NCBI GenBank assembly: GCA_030427125.1
Contig: JAUHXF010000001.1
Coordinates: 83,091-116,101 of the forward strand
Direction of reading: 5' to 3'
Source: a bacterium
GTDB taxonomy: Bacteria > Patescibacteriota > Saccharimonadia > Saccharimonadales > SZUA-47
Length of the DNA stretch: 33,011 bases
The notes beneath the pieces were generated by a model. That model was not told where the DNA came from, ran no database searches, and was given only the letters and a program-made list of their open reading frames with translations. The number at the start of each line of letters is the position of its first letter. Within the stretch, counting starts at the first letter, position 1. Below, in pieces: positions 2,536-12,383 of this stretch. The translations under genes were made by a program, and so were the position numbers.

Positions 2536-2985
2536 TCAGCTGAGAGAGCACTTTAGTAATTTATTTAACTCTGTGGGATCCCCATGTGCCGAGTCCCATA
2601 CAGTGGTGTCTAATTCGTTTTTTATAGATATCCATTTTATTTCTTTGGCATCAGGACCTAGTTTCACAAGAGATGGGTCAATATCAACAAAATAAAAAAT
2701 ATTTACTCGAGGTATATCTTGTTTTATGTGCCCTGCGCTTACATGAACTAACCTGGGAGTTGATTTTATCGAGCCAAAAGGAATAGCGATTTCCTCATGT
2801 AGCTCTCGTTCAAGCGCTGTTAGTGTGTCTTCGCCATAATCAATACCACCGCCGGGGAAGCCCCAGTCATCATCCGATTCGTCTCTGATAATCAGTATCG
2901 ATTCACCGTCAAGAATAAGCGCTTTTACAGCGACACGAAACACAGAGTTGTCTAGCTTCATTAGTGTTTTGTGCGGATTAGGCAT
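2536..2985 (-). CDS. NUDIX hydrolase
   Basis: A 149-residue protein of the NUDIX fold, which splits nucleoside diphosphates linked to another group. The Nudix box reads GGIDYGEDTLTALERELHEE, matching G-x5-E-x7-R-E-x2-E-E. The Gly normally three residues past REXXEE is Ala here (EEIAI). The substrate cannot be told from sequence. The start is taken at 2985, since longer readings run into the histidine kinase. No Shine-Dalgarno is visible, and translation may be coupled to the kinase stop 7 bases upstream. It ends the operon response regulator - kinase - NUDIX, so its product may be made under the same signal. Confidence 0.85.
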   Translation of the reverse strand: MPNPHKTLMKLDNSVFRVAVKALILDGESILIIRDESDDDWGFPGGGIDYGEDTLTALERELHEEIAIPFGSIKSTPRLVHVSAGHIKQDIPRVNIFYFVDIDPSLVKLGPDAKEIKWISIKNELDTTVWDSAHGDPTELNKLLKCSLS

Positions 2986-2992
2986 AGCTTTA

Positions 2993-4021
2993 TTATGCAG
3001 GCAATATGACAGAAAACGAAGCGCCTTTATCTGGCTCGCTTTCAACCTCAATCTTGCCGCCGTGAGCTTCGACCGCTGCTTGGGCAATGGATAAGCCGAC
3101 GCCAAAACCGTGCTTTTGTGATTCTGTTCGTGATGGATCAGCCTGATAAAATCGATCGAACAAGAAGGGTATGTCTGTTGGCAAAATACCAGCTCCCTTA
3201 TCTGTAACGGTAATAATCACATGCTTTGCTGTCTTTTTTGTATTGATAACAACCACACCCTTTTCTGGCGAATACTTGATGGCATTATCCAATATGGTCG
3301 TTATCGCTTCTGTAAGCGCAATCATATTACCTGTCGTCGTTATTTTCTTAGATCCTGTTCTTTTCAGTGTAACCTTTTTCTTTGTCGCTTTTGATTGCAC
3401 TCGTTCTAGAGCTGCCTGTATAACATCTTTTATTGATACTTCAGCGAGCTCGATTTTTTCGGCACCAATTCGAGCGAGATGAAGAAGGTTCTCCGTTAGC
3501 GCCGTGAGTTTGTCGAGCTCTTCAATGTTGCTTTCTAGCTGCAATTTAGCATCTTGTAAGCTTAGCTTAGGATCAGATAGTGCCACTTCAGTTTCTAGCT
3601 TCATCGCTGCAATTGGTGTGCGCAGTTCGTGTGATGCATCAGCAGTGAATCTACTCTGTGCTTCATGTGCGCGTTCAATCGGCTCAAGTGTTCGCCTCGC
3701 GAGTATGTAACTAAGCAGTCCGCCACTCACCAGAATAAACATGTTAATCAAAATAAGGTTTGTGCGTAAACGATTCTCAGCATTCTGTAATTGATCTGCA
3801 CGTAATTTTCCAAGTGTATTTCGTATATCTTCTACATCGGTACCGCTCAAGGTTCGCAACACGAATTCTATGTTGGAGTTGGGCCTACGAATGCCTTTCT
3901 GAAGTTCATCGGAACTAATTTGATACAGGCCAAAACTGAAGAGGAGACTAATTGACATTAGAATAACGAGGTACATCGCAGTTAATCTGAGTGTGGCGTT
4001 GCGAAATAAGCTAGCTTGCAT
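2993..4021 (-). CDS. Two-component sensor histidine kinase
   Basis: A 342-residue membrane kinase that should phosphorylate the response regulator encoded just upstream. It has a TM helix at 13-33, a short outside loop of about 55 residues, a second TM at 89-108, then the dimerisation domain with FTADASHELRTP and the phospho-acceptor His131. The ATP domain shows an N box (ILDNAIKYSPE), a G1 box (DKGAGI), an F box (FDRFYQAD) and a G2 box (GFGVGLSIA). There is no recognisable HAMP or PAS domain, so the small outer loop or the membrane itself is the likely sensor. I chose the ATG at 4021, with GGGGAG 4-9 bases before it; it overlaps the regulator stop by 11 bases. Confidence 0.94.
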   Translation of the reverse strand: MQASLFRNATLRLTAMYLVILMSISLLFSFGLYQISSDELQKGIRRPNSNIEFVLRTLSGTDVEDIRNTLGKLRADQLQNAENRLRTNLILINMFILVSGGLLSYILARRTLEPIERAHEAQSRFTADASHELRTPIAAMKLETEVALSDPKLSLQDAKLQLESNIEELDKLTALTENLLHLARIGAEKIELAEVSIKDVIQAALERVQSKATKKKVTLKRTGSKKITTTGNMIALTEAITTILDNAIKYSPEKGVVVINTKKTAKHVIITVTDKGAGILPTDIPFLFDRFYQADPSRTESQKHGFGVGLSIAQAAVEAHGGKIEVESEPDKGASFSVILPA

Positions 4022-8642: not shown

Positions 8643-11549
8643 ATGAATACATGGTTTCAAAAACACGCAGACGATGTTCTCCACGAGCAGAACGTCACGC
8701 TAGATAAAGGACTGAGTAGCACAGAAGTGTCTACTAGATTAAAACAGTATGGCGCTAATCAGCTCGAATCAGCCGAAAAAATAAATCCTTTCACGCTGTT
8801 TATTGGTCAGTTTAAGGACGTCTTAGTCATTATTTTGCTTGTCGCCGCTGTTGTTTCGTGGGGTGTTGGGCTGGTGGCTGAACCTGAAGCGCACCAGCTG
8901 GCATCGGCTGAGCAGCGAATGCAGTTCGAAGAAAAAGTATGCGTAGAACTACCTGGCCAAGGTATCAATGCAGACTGCGCAAAACTACAGGGAGTGTACG
9001 ATGAAAACTCATACGAACTGTGGTGCAGCGATGAAAATGCGTGCGAAGTGCATGAAGCTGGCCATGCACCTGAGGGTGAATCAGGCGAAGGTGCTCAAGA
9101 GGCATTGTTGATTTTTGCTATTGTGCTCGCAATAGCGATTATCGGCTTCTTCAACGAGTATAAAGCGGAAAAGACTGTTGAGGCTTTGAAGAAGCTTGTT
9201 GGTGCTAAAGCAAGTGTGCGACGAGATGGAAAGGTTATCGAGGTTGATGCTACTGAAATAGTGCCCGGGGATATCGTTGTTCTAGAGGAGGGCCAAAAAG
9301 TTCCAGCTGACTTGCGATTAGTACAAGTACGAAACCTCCAGGTGAACGAGGCGAGCTTAACTGGAGAGAGTCTGCCTGTTAGTAAGTCGGAGCAGCTTAT
9401 TAAAGACGATGCTGCACTGGGTGATCAAAAGAACATGGCTTTTGCCGGTACATTTGTTACACAAGGTACAGCTGAGGGTGTGGTGGTAGAGACTGCACAA
9501 ACCACAGAGCTCGGTAAGATAGCGACGCTAGTGAATGCAGTTGATACTGAGCAAACACCAATGCAGCGCAAGCTAGACGAGCTGGGTAAAAAACTCGGTC
9601 TGCTCATTCTTATTATCTGTACAATTGTGTTTTTTGTAGTGATATTCCTCGTTGATGAAGCCCGTGATAAGGACTTCTTACAGCGAATGATTTTTGCTTT
9701 TACTGCGGCGGTAGCCTTAGCGGTCGCGGCTATACCAGAGGGTCTTGCTTTTGTTGTTCGCATTAGTCTTGCGCTTGGAGCGCGACGTATGGCGAGCAAG
9801 AATGGATTGGTGCGCAAGCTGAGTGCTGTCGAGGCACTCGGTTCAACTGACGTTATATGTTCCGATAAGACGGGTACGCTGACACGCGGTGAAATGACAG
9901 TACGAGAGATAGTTGCTGGCGGGGAATCGCTTCAGGTCACAGGCGGTGGCTATGATCTGGTGGGTGATTTTGAAAAAGATGGTAAAAAAACGAAGCCGAG
10001 TCACCCTCACGAGAGGCTGCTTATAATCGGTGCACTATGCAATAATGCTCGCTTAAAGGGAGATACTGTTCTCGGTGATCCTACGGAAGGGAGCCTGCTT
10101 GTTTCTGCAGCTAAGGATAGCTATAACTACGAACGTGTGCAGAAAAACTACCCACGAATAAATGAAGTGCCATTTACGAGTGACCGGAAGTTCATGAGTA
10201 CTGTGCACACTGTCGAAGACGGGTTTCTAGTCGCAGCTAAAGGCTCAGTTGAAGCAACGCTCGCGCGATGCACGCATATGCTTAACGCGAAGGGTAAGAA
10301 GGTAAAAATGACACCGGCCGATAAGAAGGCCATTCAAGAAAGAAATAAGGCTCTGAGCTCTCAAGCATTACGCGTGCTCGCGTTTGCACAGAAAGAAGTT
10401 AAGACCGAACCGAAGACTGAAGCGCAGATAGAAAAGGATCTTGTCTTTGTTGGATTGCAAGCCATGATGGATCCACCGCGTGCAGAAGTCGTACAAGTGG
10501 TTCACCAAGTGCAGACTGAGGCTGGTATGCGAGTAGTGATGATAACCGGTGATTACATTGAGACCGCAAAGGCGGTAGCAGCCGAAATTGGTATCCAAGG
10601 CGAGGCTATCAGTGGTAACGAACTAGAGGCAATGAGCCAGCAAGAATTTGAAGAGAAGGTAGAGGATATTTCTATTTATGCACGGGTGAATCCTGAGCAT
10701 AAAATTCGTATTGTCAAAGCTCTGAAGAAGCACGGGCATCAAGTAGCCATGACAGGTGATGGCGTAAACGACGCGCCAGCGATTAAGGCTGCCGATATTG
10801 GTATTGCTATGGGTATTACAGGTACAGACGCAGCCAAAGAAGCAGCCGATCTCATTCTACTTGATGATAAGTTTGTCACCATCATCAACGCCATTGAGGA
10901 GGGGCGGGGAATTTTCGATAACGTCCGTAAGTTCGTCAATTTCCTCATCAGCTGTAACATCGCTGAAGTTCTTGTGATTCTATTTGGTATTTTATTCTTT
11001 AATAACTTATTGCTCACCGCTGCTCAGCTGCTTTTTATTAATATTGTCACCGATGGGCTGCCAGCCATTGCTCTAGGTTCAGACCCAGCCAGGAGCGATG
11101 TATTGAAGGCGAAGCCGCATCGATTCCAGGAGGCTATCCTGACAAAGCGCGTGTGGACTGAGATTTTTGTTTTTGGATCTCTCATGACTGTCGCCATGTT
11201 GATTCAATATTGGTACAACACAACACACGAAAGTATGTTGGCGGCTGTATCGGCTGCGTTTACTGCGATGGTTGTCTACGAACTGGTACGACTAGTTGAT
11301 ATACGAACTGATTACAAGATTAAATGGCTCTCTAACCCTATGTTGACCGTTGCCATGGCTATATCGTTAGTGCTACAGCTTGCCGTATTGTACGTTCCAT
11401 CGATTGCTGAGTATTTTGGAGTTGGCCCGTTGTCGGCACACGATTGGGTCTTCATGGCCATAGGTTCAGTGCTTTTGTTTGTCGCTATGAAAGCAGCTAA
11501 CCCCATACTCGACTCCCTGGTAGGCGGCGAGCACCATAGGCGCGCATAA
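8643..11549 (+). CDS. Cation-transporting P-type ATPase, SERCA/PMR1-like (Ca2+)
   Basis: A 968-residue P2A-type pump that should export Ca2+ with ATP. It has the N-terminal cation ATPase domain, the actuator TGES (240-243), PEGL in M4 (365-368), phosphorylation Asp408 in DKTGT, the nucleotide-site KGS (533-535) and the hinge GDGVND (705-710). Ca2+-binding positions are kept: Glu in PEGL, Glu775 in M5 and N-x2-TD in M6 (800-804). The outside loop between TM1 (about 58-78) and TM2 (about 153-170) is unusually long, some 75 residues instead of the usual 10-20, acidic, and has four Cys (100, 112, 128, 134). It is divergent from the redox operon, so the loop cysteines could be substrates of that system. 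It is a single-gene unit. Confidence 0.95.
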   Translation: MNTWFQKHADDVLHEQNVTLDKGLSSTEVSTRLKQYGANQLESAEKINPFTLFIGQFKDVLVIILLVAAVVSWGVGLVAEPEAHQLASAEQRMQFEEKVCVELPGQGINADCAKLQGVYDENSYELWCSDENACEVHEAGHAPEGESGEGAQEALLIFAIVLAIAIIGFFNEYKAEKTVEALKKLVGAKASVRRDGKVIEVDATEIVPGDIVVLEEGQKVPADLRLVQVRNLQVNEASLTGESLPVSKSEQLIKDDAALGDQKNMAFAGTFVTQGTAEGVVVETAQTTELGKIATLVNAVDTEQTPMQRKLDELGKKLGLLILIICTIVFFVVIFLVDEARDKDFLQRMIFAFTAAVALAVAAIPEGLAFVVRISLALGARRMASKNGLVRKLSAVEALGSTDVICSDKTGTLTRGEMTVREIVAGGESLQVTGGGYDLVGDFEKDGKKTKPSHPHERLLIIGALCNNARLKGDTVLGDPTEGSLLVSAAKDSYNYERVQKNYPRINEVPFTSDRKFMSTVHTVEDGFLVAAKGSVEATLARCTHMLNAKGKKVKMTPADKKAIQERNKALSSQALRVLAFAQKEVKTEPKTEAQIEKDLVFVGLQAMMDPPRAEVVQVVHQVQTEAGMRVVMITGDYIETAKAVAAEIGIQGEAISGNELEAMSQQEFEEKVEDISIYARVNPEHKIRIVKALKKHGHQVAMTGDGVNDAPAIKAADIGIAMGITGTDAAKEAADLILLDDKFVTIINAIEEGRGIFDNVRKFVNFLISCNIAEVLVILFGILFFNNLLLTAAQLLFINIVTDGLPAIALGSDPARSDVLKAKPHRFQEAILTKRVWTEIFVFGSLMTVAMLIQYWYNTTHESMLAAVSAAFTAMVVYELVRLVDIRTDYKIKWLSNPMLTVAMAISLVLQLAVLYVPSIAEYFGVGPLSAHDWVFMAIGSVLLFVAMKAANPILDSLVGGEHHRRA

Positions 11550-11556
11550 AATACTA

Positions 11557-11585
11557 TTGACAAAAAGAAAAGCATAAGCTATAAT
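11557..11585 (+). promoter_or_regulatory. Consensus promoter of the 51-residue gene and structured RNA
   Basis: TTGACA (11557-11562), 17 bp, TATAAT (11580-11585) is an exact sigma70 consensus, the strongest promoter in the window. The following 64-base leader is A-rich with AAAGGA 9 bases before the ATG. It implies a very abundant transcript. Confidence 0.93.
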
Positions 11586-11655
11586 AGCTAGCGTTGAATC
11601 AAAACAAAAAAACGAATCAACAAAACAAAAAATAAGTACGAAAGGATCAATTCAA

Positions 11656-11811
11656 ATGGTATTTGGTCTCGGTTCTAAAAAAACAGTAAAAGAAGATACA
11701 TCATCTAAGAAAGCAAAAAAAGCTTCCGGATCTTCACAAGCTGATGAAGCCGCTGAACTTCTCAAAAAAATGGAAGAGAAGAAACAGGGCGATGAATGTG
11801 CATTTTGTTAA
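11656..11811 (+). CDS. Small Lys-rich protein with C-terminal CxxC (51 residues)
   Basis: A 51-residue protein that starts MVFGLGSKKT, continues with a Lys/Ser-rich stretch, then a short helix (DEAAELLKKMEEKKQ), and ends DECAFC with the last two Cys spaced C-x2-C at the very terminus. I do not recognise a family. The signals are strong: consensus promoter, A-rich leader, AAAGGA, and a highly basic composition. A terminal CxxC could bind metal, form a disulfide or be modified. It is followed by a long structured non-coding stretch with no promoter visible between, so protein and RNA probably share a transcript. Confidence 0.75.
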   Translation: MVFGLGSKKTVKEDTSSKKAKKASGSSQADEAAELLKKMEEKKQGDECAFC

Positions 11812-12359
11812 CCACTGCGTTACTTGAGAGGGAATGATTTTCCCTCTCAACGCGCAGGGCAACTACAAAAGCAGATTGCTCTGGCTGCTCTCCCTTCGGA
11901 AAATGCACAAGTATTCGTGAAGTGAATTCACAAAAACTTGCTTACTCATGAACTGGAGCAGGCGAGCGAAGCGGTTTGATGAGGACGAGCGATTTTTTCC
12001 CACACTTTTCATCAACAAAAAAGTGCGAATTTTAAAAAATTGCTCGCAACTCACCAAATCTTCTACCTCAAAAGTAGAAGTAAAACTTCGAAATCTACAA
12101 TTTATGTGGATAAGAAAAACAAAACCGGTTTGTTTTTCACGAAGAGTGTATGACATACTAGTCAAGTTCATACAAAAATAAAAAATATAAAACTAACAAA
12201 AAAGGGCTATCTTTTCGATGAGCTACGAACGATCAGTTTCTAAGAGTTTTCTCGTAAAACTTTACGACAAAATCTTTGAAGCTTAGAATGATTAAATCAT
12301 TCTGAACAACAAAACTTCTTTGGGTTTGCAGGGTCAGTCCTCACCCAAAGAAGTTTTTT
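11812..12359 (+). ncRNA. Long structured RNA region of unknown class
   Basis: About 550 bases have no convincing gene but a dense chain of hairpins: 11824-11850 (11 bp), 11870-11889, 11908-11940 (nested), 11986-12046 (13 bp with one G-U, enclosing a 7-bp inner stem), 12060-12080 (7 bp), 12086-12144 (enclosing a 10-bp stem with ACCGG loop), 12147-12174, 12252-12267 and 12285-12303. It ends in a 15-bp terminator. The 13-bp stem keeps pairing through a G-U, which suggests selection on RNA. I see none of the RNase P, tmRNA, SRP or 6S core sequences I know. It may be the 3' part of the 51-residue gene's mRNA or a processed RNA. Confidence 0.55.
12311..12359 (+). terminator. Strong terminator of the structured RNA
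   Basis: A 15-bp perfect stem (12311-12325 with 12343-12357) and a run of six T (12354-12359). The 17-base loop is unusually long and GC-rich and could itself make contacts. AAAGAAGTTTT of the 3' arm recurs at 12369-12379. Confidence 0.9.
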
Positions 12360-12383
12360 AATCTAGCAAAGAAGTTTTATATC

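Follow-up and report, generated by a model that had tools for sequence, protein, structure and literature searches.

Small proteins encoded behind structured leaders are an already known kind of bacterial gene, and the closest described systems to the locus analyzed here are the bicistronic small-protein mRNAs that have structured regulatory untranslated regions (UTRs) and an internal promoter. The locus resembles them in its short open reading frames (ORFs) with their own ribosome-binding sites, in its structured intercistronic region, and in its terminator. It differs in that none of the families described in the searched libraries matches its two reading frames, ORF1 and ORF2, or its RNA element, R1. 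Another useful comparison is with RNAs of the SgrS/SgrT type. As in those RNAs, a short conserved peptide and a structured RNA share one transcript, but for this unit a target, a seed, and action in trans would all be putative. A third comparison concerns one part of the locus, the repeat R2, which is like the REP- and MITE-like elements of bacteria in being short, structured, dispersed in both orientations, and found beside stop and start codons. It differs from them in its three-hairpin, cloverleaf-like form and in the direct repeats of 18 to 49 bp that accompany some copies. Literature searches on the non-coding RNAs, small proteins, and repeats of Saccharibacteria turned up no mention of the locus among the results listed.

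The window, meaning the whole 33,011-nucleotide stretch of DNA that was analyzed, comes from a genome of 0.92 Mb (G000). Its relevant features, with positions counted in the window, are these:

8643-11549, plus strand: gene for a Ca2+-transporting P-type ATPase (LMCA1/SPCA-like), the syntenic upstream neighbor, identified with Pfam
11557-11585, plus strand: promoter P1, TTGACA-17-TATAAT, matching the consensus at 12/12 positions
11593-11621, plus strand: 5'-terminal hairpin, GTTGA..TCAAC with an A-rich loop (z -2.9)
11640-11646, plus strand: Shine-Dalgarno-like GAAAGGA of ORF1, read from the sequence
11656-11811, plus strand: ORF1, a 51-residue Lys-rich protein with a C-terminal helix and a CAFC end, based on homologues, alignment, and pN/pS
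about 11822-11912, minus strand: R2, a three-hairpin interspersed repeat directly after the ORF1 stop codon (core 11844-11897; cmsearch 67.3 bits)
11972-12061, plus strand: R1, stem / internal loop (GGRA-CGAG // CUCG-CAACC) / stem with a variable apical part, based on covariation (z -5.4)
12130-12159, plus strand: probable internal promoter P2, TTGTTT-18-(extended TG)-CATACT, its position and spacing kept in relatives
12199-12207, plus strand: Shine-Dalgarno-like AAAAAGGGC of ORF2, read from the sequence
12218-12286, plus strand: ORF2, a 22-residue protein, MSYERSVSKSFLVKLYDKIFEA, based on conserved length and codon pattern
12311-12360, plus strand: intrinsic terminator with GGTCAGTC in its loop, a 15-bp stem (12311-12357), and a T run

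A preliminary description of this DNA had already pointed to the exact consensus promoter, the tiny Lys-rich protein ending in CAFC, a 13-bp stem kept through one G-U pair, a 10-bp stem with an ACCGG loop, and the 15-bp terminator stem. All of these are present, the first of the two inner stems lying within 11985-12053 and the other at about 12114-12138. Its statement that no further gene follows the Lys-rich protein fails, since the conserved 22-codon ORF2 lies ahead of the terminator.

Of the family's 11 genomes, 10 have DNA matches to the locus, and a search with ORF2 returns the same ten; the single family genome without a match is 66% complete. Because the locus of one genome (G003) is truncated at a contig start, the upstream parts were compared in nine loci. 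The parts that stay constant are P1, the 5' hairpin, R1, ORF2, and the terminator. The locus of G010 is the minimal form, made up of P1, R1, ORF2, the terminator, and almost nothing more, and here R1 and ORF2 are 53 nt apart, the low end of a spacing that reaches 371 nt in other loci. The neighbors on the 3' side vary by genome and include a tRNA-Met in sense, a tRNA-Met in antisense, and unrelated genes. The locus is read here as the source of an mRNA that encodes one very small protein or two, with R1 as a probable cis element in the leader of ORF2.

The promoter is very conserved. All nine untruncated loci of the family share the 29-bp P1 pattern, and an invariant AAAGCATAAGC precedes its -10 element. 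The strong expression proposed in the preliminary description is a prediction from this promoter. In a collection of 84,980 genomes, the exact pattern occurs in only 8 stretches, all of which are this locus, and the relatives that carry it include records named Saccharibacteria or Saccharimonadia; the pattern lengthened by one base, in effect a negative control, returned unrelated sites only. No copies of P1 were found in viral contigs. The 5' hairpin lies 7 to 9 nt past the P1 -10 element in 9/9 loci. At the other end of the unit, the terminator loop word GGTCAGTC is kept in 7 of the 10 genomes.

In every one of the ten family genomes that carry it, ORF2 has exactly 22 codons. Its profile gives E-values of 3e-13 or better (to 1e-15) within the family, and across 387 genomes of the order nothing outside the family does better than 0.009. 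Third positions vary in 20 of its 21 codons, and pN/pS is 0.33 in frame compared to 0.94 and 1.10 in the other two frames. Judged by this codon pattern, ORF2 is under purifying selection at the protein level and is a family-specific small-protein gene. Its Shine-Dalgarno sequence lies 46 to 138 nt from the start codon in 7/9 loci, with hairpins in between, so initiation in those seven genomes is hard to explain. The accessibility of this Shine-Dalgarno sequence, calculated from the partition function, shows no consistent change between P1 and P2 transcripts, and therefore no switching mechanism is visible.

ORF1 is also coding, and it is both less constant and more widespread. It has homologues in 6 of the 11 family genomes and, outside the family, in G033, G051, G020, G034, G035, G023, and G045, and it is missing in G004, G005, and G010, which retain P1, R1, and ORF2. 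At the P1 locus of G004 (L029, about 2328), ORF1 has apparently shrunk to ATGTAA, a start and a stop codon behind an intact ribosome-binding site. In an alignment of 12 rows, M1, K42, and the CxFC motif are invariant, and the aligned homologues from other families all end in C(P/A)FC; pN/pS over the C-terminal 24 codons is 0.16. The AlphaFold prediction consists of one helix (residues 26-46), with the rest at low confidence (mean pLDDT 62). Neither ORF1 nor ORF2 has anything above threshold in the PDB, Pfam, NCBIfam, or PHROGs. The C-terminal helix of ORF1 bears a weak likeness (E 0.016) to the SHOCT-like short domains (PF22746), but ORF1 scores 15.3 bits compared to the curated cut-off of 27, and it differs in its CxFC end; its assignment as a SHOCT domain was rejected on that score.

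The neighborhood offers a hint as to what the ORF1 protein may do. Among solved chains, the ATPase is closest to Listeria LMCA1 and to SPCA1. Nine family loci, counting the window, reach far enough upstream to show this neighbor, and 8 of them have a homologue of it there; in other families, a homologue accompanies ORF1 at 6 of 7 loci. This linkage suggests a role in ion homeostasis, with the CxFC end as a putative metal or redox site. Any roles given to the ORF1 and ORF2 proteins are meant as suggestions.

R1 covaries, and hence a real conserved RNA element exists at the locus. Over nine sequences, 10 of its 22 pairs have changed on both sides and 90.9% of the cells are paired, a result reached by none of 500 shuffles. 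Structures slid along the alignment reach at most 49.5% paired cells; since the R1 structure was drawn by hand from the same nine sequences, this control somewhat favors it. Searched with its covariance model, nine family genomes each give a single match, which is at this locus every time, and no other family in the sample of the order gives any; no Rfam family matches R1 at threshold. Two of its strands, ACGAG and CGCAACCC (11985-12061), resemble the word AACGAGCGCAACCC in the 1100 region of 16S rRNA, which we take to be universal, and the resemblance is presumably a coincidence. R1 stands between P1 and ORF2 in 9/9 loci, including those without ORF1. It is thus a conserved, covarying structure in a UTR, always upstream of ORF2, and it is this position that points to action in cis.

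Between R1 and ORF2, six of the nine genomes carry TTG...-18-TGN(C/G)ATACT or a close variant. The spacing is always 18 nt and the surroundings differ. In its strict form, the motif occurs once in the window. A generic promoter scan did not pick it up, and it is not recognizable in G006, G007, and G010. A hairpin (about 12147-12173 in the window) holds the -10 element in its loop, and its arms covary in G000, G001, G004, and G005. Because the arms differ in sequence and yet pair, this region is also structurally constrained; taken alone, the hairpin in the window folds weakly better than shuffles (z -1.5). With its kept position and spacing, the motif would probably give ORF2 a promoter of its own.

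R2 is a different kind of element. The covariance model of its core, which itself shows covariation, finds 4 to 22 copies per genome in 10 of the 11 family genomes, and it has matches in 54 of the 110 Saccharimonadales genomes. The copies are dispersed in unrelated contexts, and long direct repeats (18-49 bp), as of target-site duplication, flank 5 of 33 copies compared to 1 of 179 control positions, so R2 is apparently mobile; at the copy in the window no direct repeats are visible. Repeats of this length are odd for a DNA transposon and recall retroposon-like insertion. Some copies follow stop codons, for example, those of ORF1 in G000, G006, G008, and G020 and those of rpoD- and ftsX-like genes in G007, which were named by eye from the sequence. 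In the other orientation, R2 lies between the Shine-Dalgarno sequence and the start codon, as for ORF1 in G007 and ORF2 in G002. Copies whose outer stem bridges these two sites were seen at L027 (about 3270-3380), L032 (about 2560-2680), and L131 (about 1440-1560), and further copies occur in L133, L136, L144, L146, L147, and others. The copy in the window is enclosed by TGTGCATTTT at the end of ORF1 (11794-11803) and its exact inverse, AAAATGCACA (11900-11909), an arrangement not seen in G006. In G004 (L029, about 2850-3150) and G035 (L077, 1000-1350), the 3' ends of tRNAs and neighboring sequence are duplicated around structured inserts, which may point to a further family of repeats that makes long target duplications. 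Because the element after ORF1 is interspersed, part of what had looked like structured RNA is the remains of a mobile repeat.

Taken together, the locus is best explained, with moderate confidence, as a transcription unit for small proteins in one family of Saccharibacteria, with R1 as its cis regulator. P1 would give an mRNA of about 0.77 kb comprising the 5' hairpin, which is probably protective, an optional ORF1, R1, ORF2, and the terminator. The probable P2 could give a short mRNA for ORF2 without R1. R1 would most likely act on the P1 transcript as a putative binding site for a protein or ligand, and binding would set the stability or translation of ORF2. The R2 hairpin after ORF1 would be a mobile repeat that inserted long ago and is now at most a stabilizer of a 3' end. 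Counting against the explanation are the lack of R1 in P2 transcripts, the three genomes in which P2 is not recognizable, the inconsistent accessibility of the ORF2 Shine-Dalgarno sequence, and its distance from the start codon in seven of nine genomes.

The main rival to a cis-regulated small-protein mRNA is a dual-function RNA. Here the P1 transcript would itself be the main product, its R1 loop or its GGUCAGUC terminator loop acting in trans, and ORF1 and ORF2 would be accessory peptides, much as in SgrS/SgrT. In its favor are the conserved words that the internal loop of R1 and the terminator loop each contain, the very conserved P1, and the minimal locus of G010, and the RNA does carry a short, conserved, and apparently coding reading frame, ORF2. 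However, GGUCAGUC is absent from G002, G005, and G007, no partner sequence was identified, a search for an intramolecular partner of the GGUCAGUC loop also found none, and coding selection on ORF2 accounts for part of the conservation. We regard such an RNA as unlikely. Somewhat more doubtful is the proposal that R1 anchors a new RNA class and that, in this family, the P1 transcript acts in trans as the RNA half of a pair with the 22-residue protein of ORF2.

ORF2 could also be an active peptide, either in a type I toxin-antitoxin locus or as a secreted amphipathic peptide resembling the phenol-soluble modulins (PSM-like). Its 22 residues, its possible helix with one apolar face, and the strong promoter fit such a peptide, but the helical moment is only weakly above that of shuffles, and the charge is near zero. 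On the minus strand, the promoter scan shows a single weak promoter-like site (9/12) and none of quality. Type I toxins are small, hydrophobic, and membrane spanning, and residues 9-22 of ORF2, with a mean hydrophobicity of -0.13 to 0.32 and no long apolar stretch, offer no membrane-spanning segment. This reading is improbable.

Marginally less probable still is a single new class of structured non-coding RNA of about 550 nt, the reading toward which the preliminary description leaned. The folding it described is real: 11812-12360 (549 nt) reaches -171.6 kcal/mol compared to -113.4 +/- 6.7 for dinucleotide shuffles (z -8.7). The single unit is not, for the stretch is made up of R2, R1, the probable P2, ORF2, and the terminator. 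Homologous loci do show covariation, but in R1, an element of about 90 nt and not 550; apart from R1, only some local hairpins are kept, a gene and a dispersed repeat lie inside, and the distance from R1 to ORF2 varies. The anatomy of the locus thus largely refutes the single RNA, and of the three readings first offered, the long structured UTR comes closest. The reported absence of RNase P, tmRNA, SRP, and 6S RNA holds: none of the Rfam covariance models (RNase P, SRP, 6S, ROOL, GOLLD, HEARO, and the rest) reaches its gathering threshold at the locus, and the matches in the window are three tRNAs only. The best match below threshold at the locus (E 0.05) places a microRNA family on the terminator hairpin. 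The locus was rejected as a tmRNA, the full-length match (81.9 bits) being at G000:C38 instead. Least probable of all is a leader peptide, in which ORF2 and an attenuator formed by R1 plus the terminator would control a downstream gene: a short ORF followed by an intrinsic terminator fits, but the idea is rejected because the downstream genes differ among genomes, and ORF2 has no run of one residue and appears to be selected for its protein sequence.

As a small-protein unit with a cis-acting R1, the locus would add to the little-studied regulation of these bacteria a 22-residue protein family, a family of CxFC small proteins linked to a Ca2+-ATPase, and a covarying RNA element, all new to the libraries searched. 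It also illustrates that DNA that folds strongly and passes for "non-coding" can be pieced together from a short gene and a dispersed repeat. R2, which is found across the order and in places lies between a ribosome-binding site and its start codon, may be of wider importance than this one locus.
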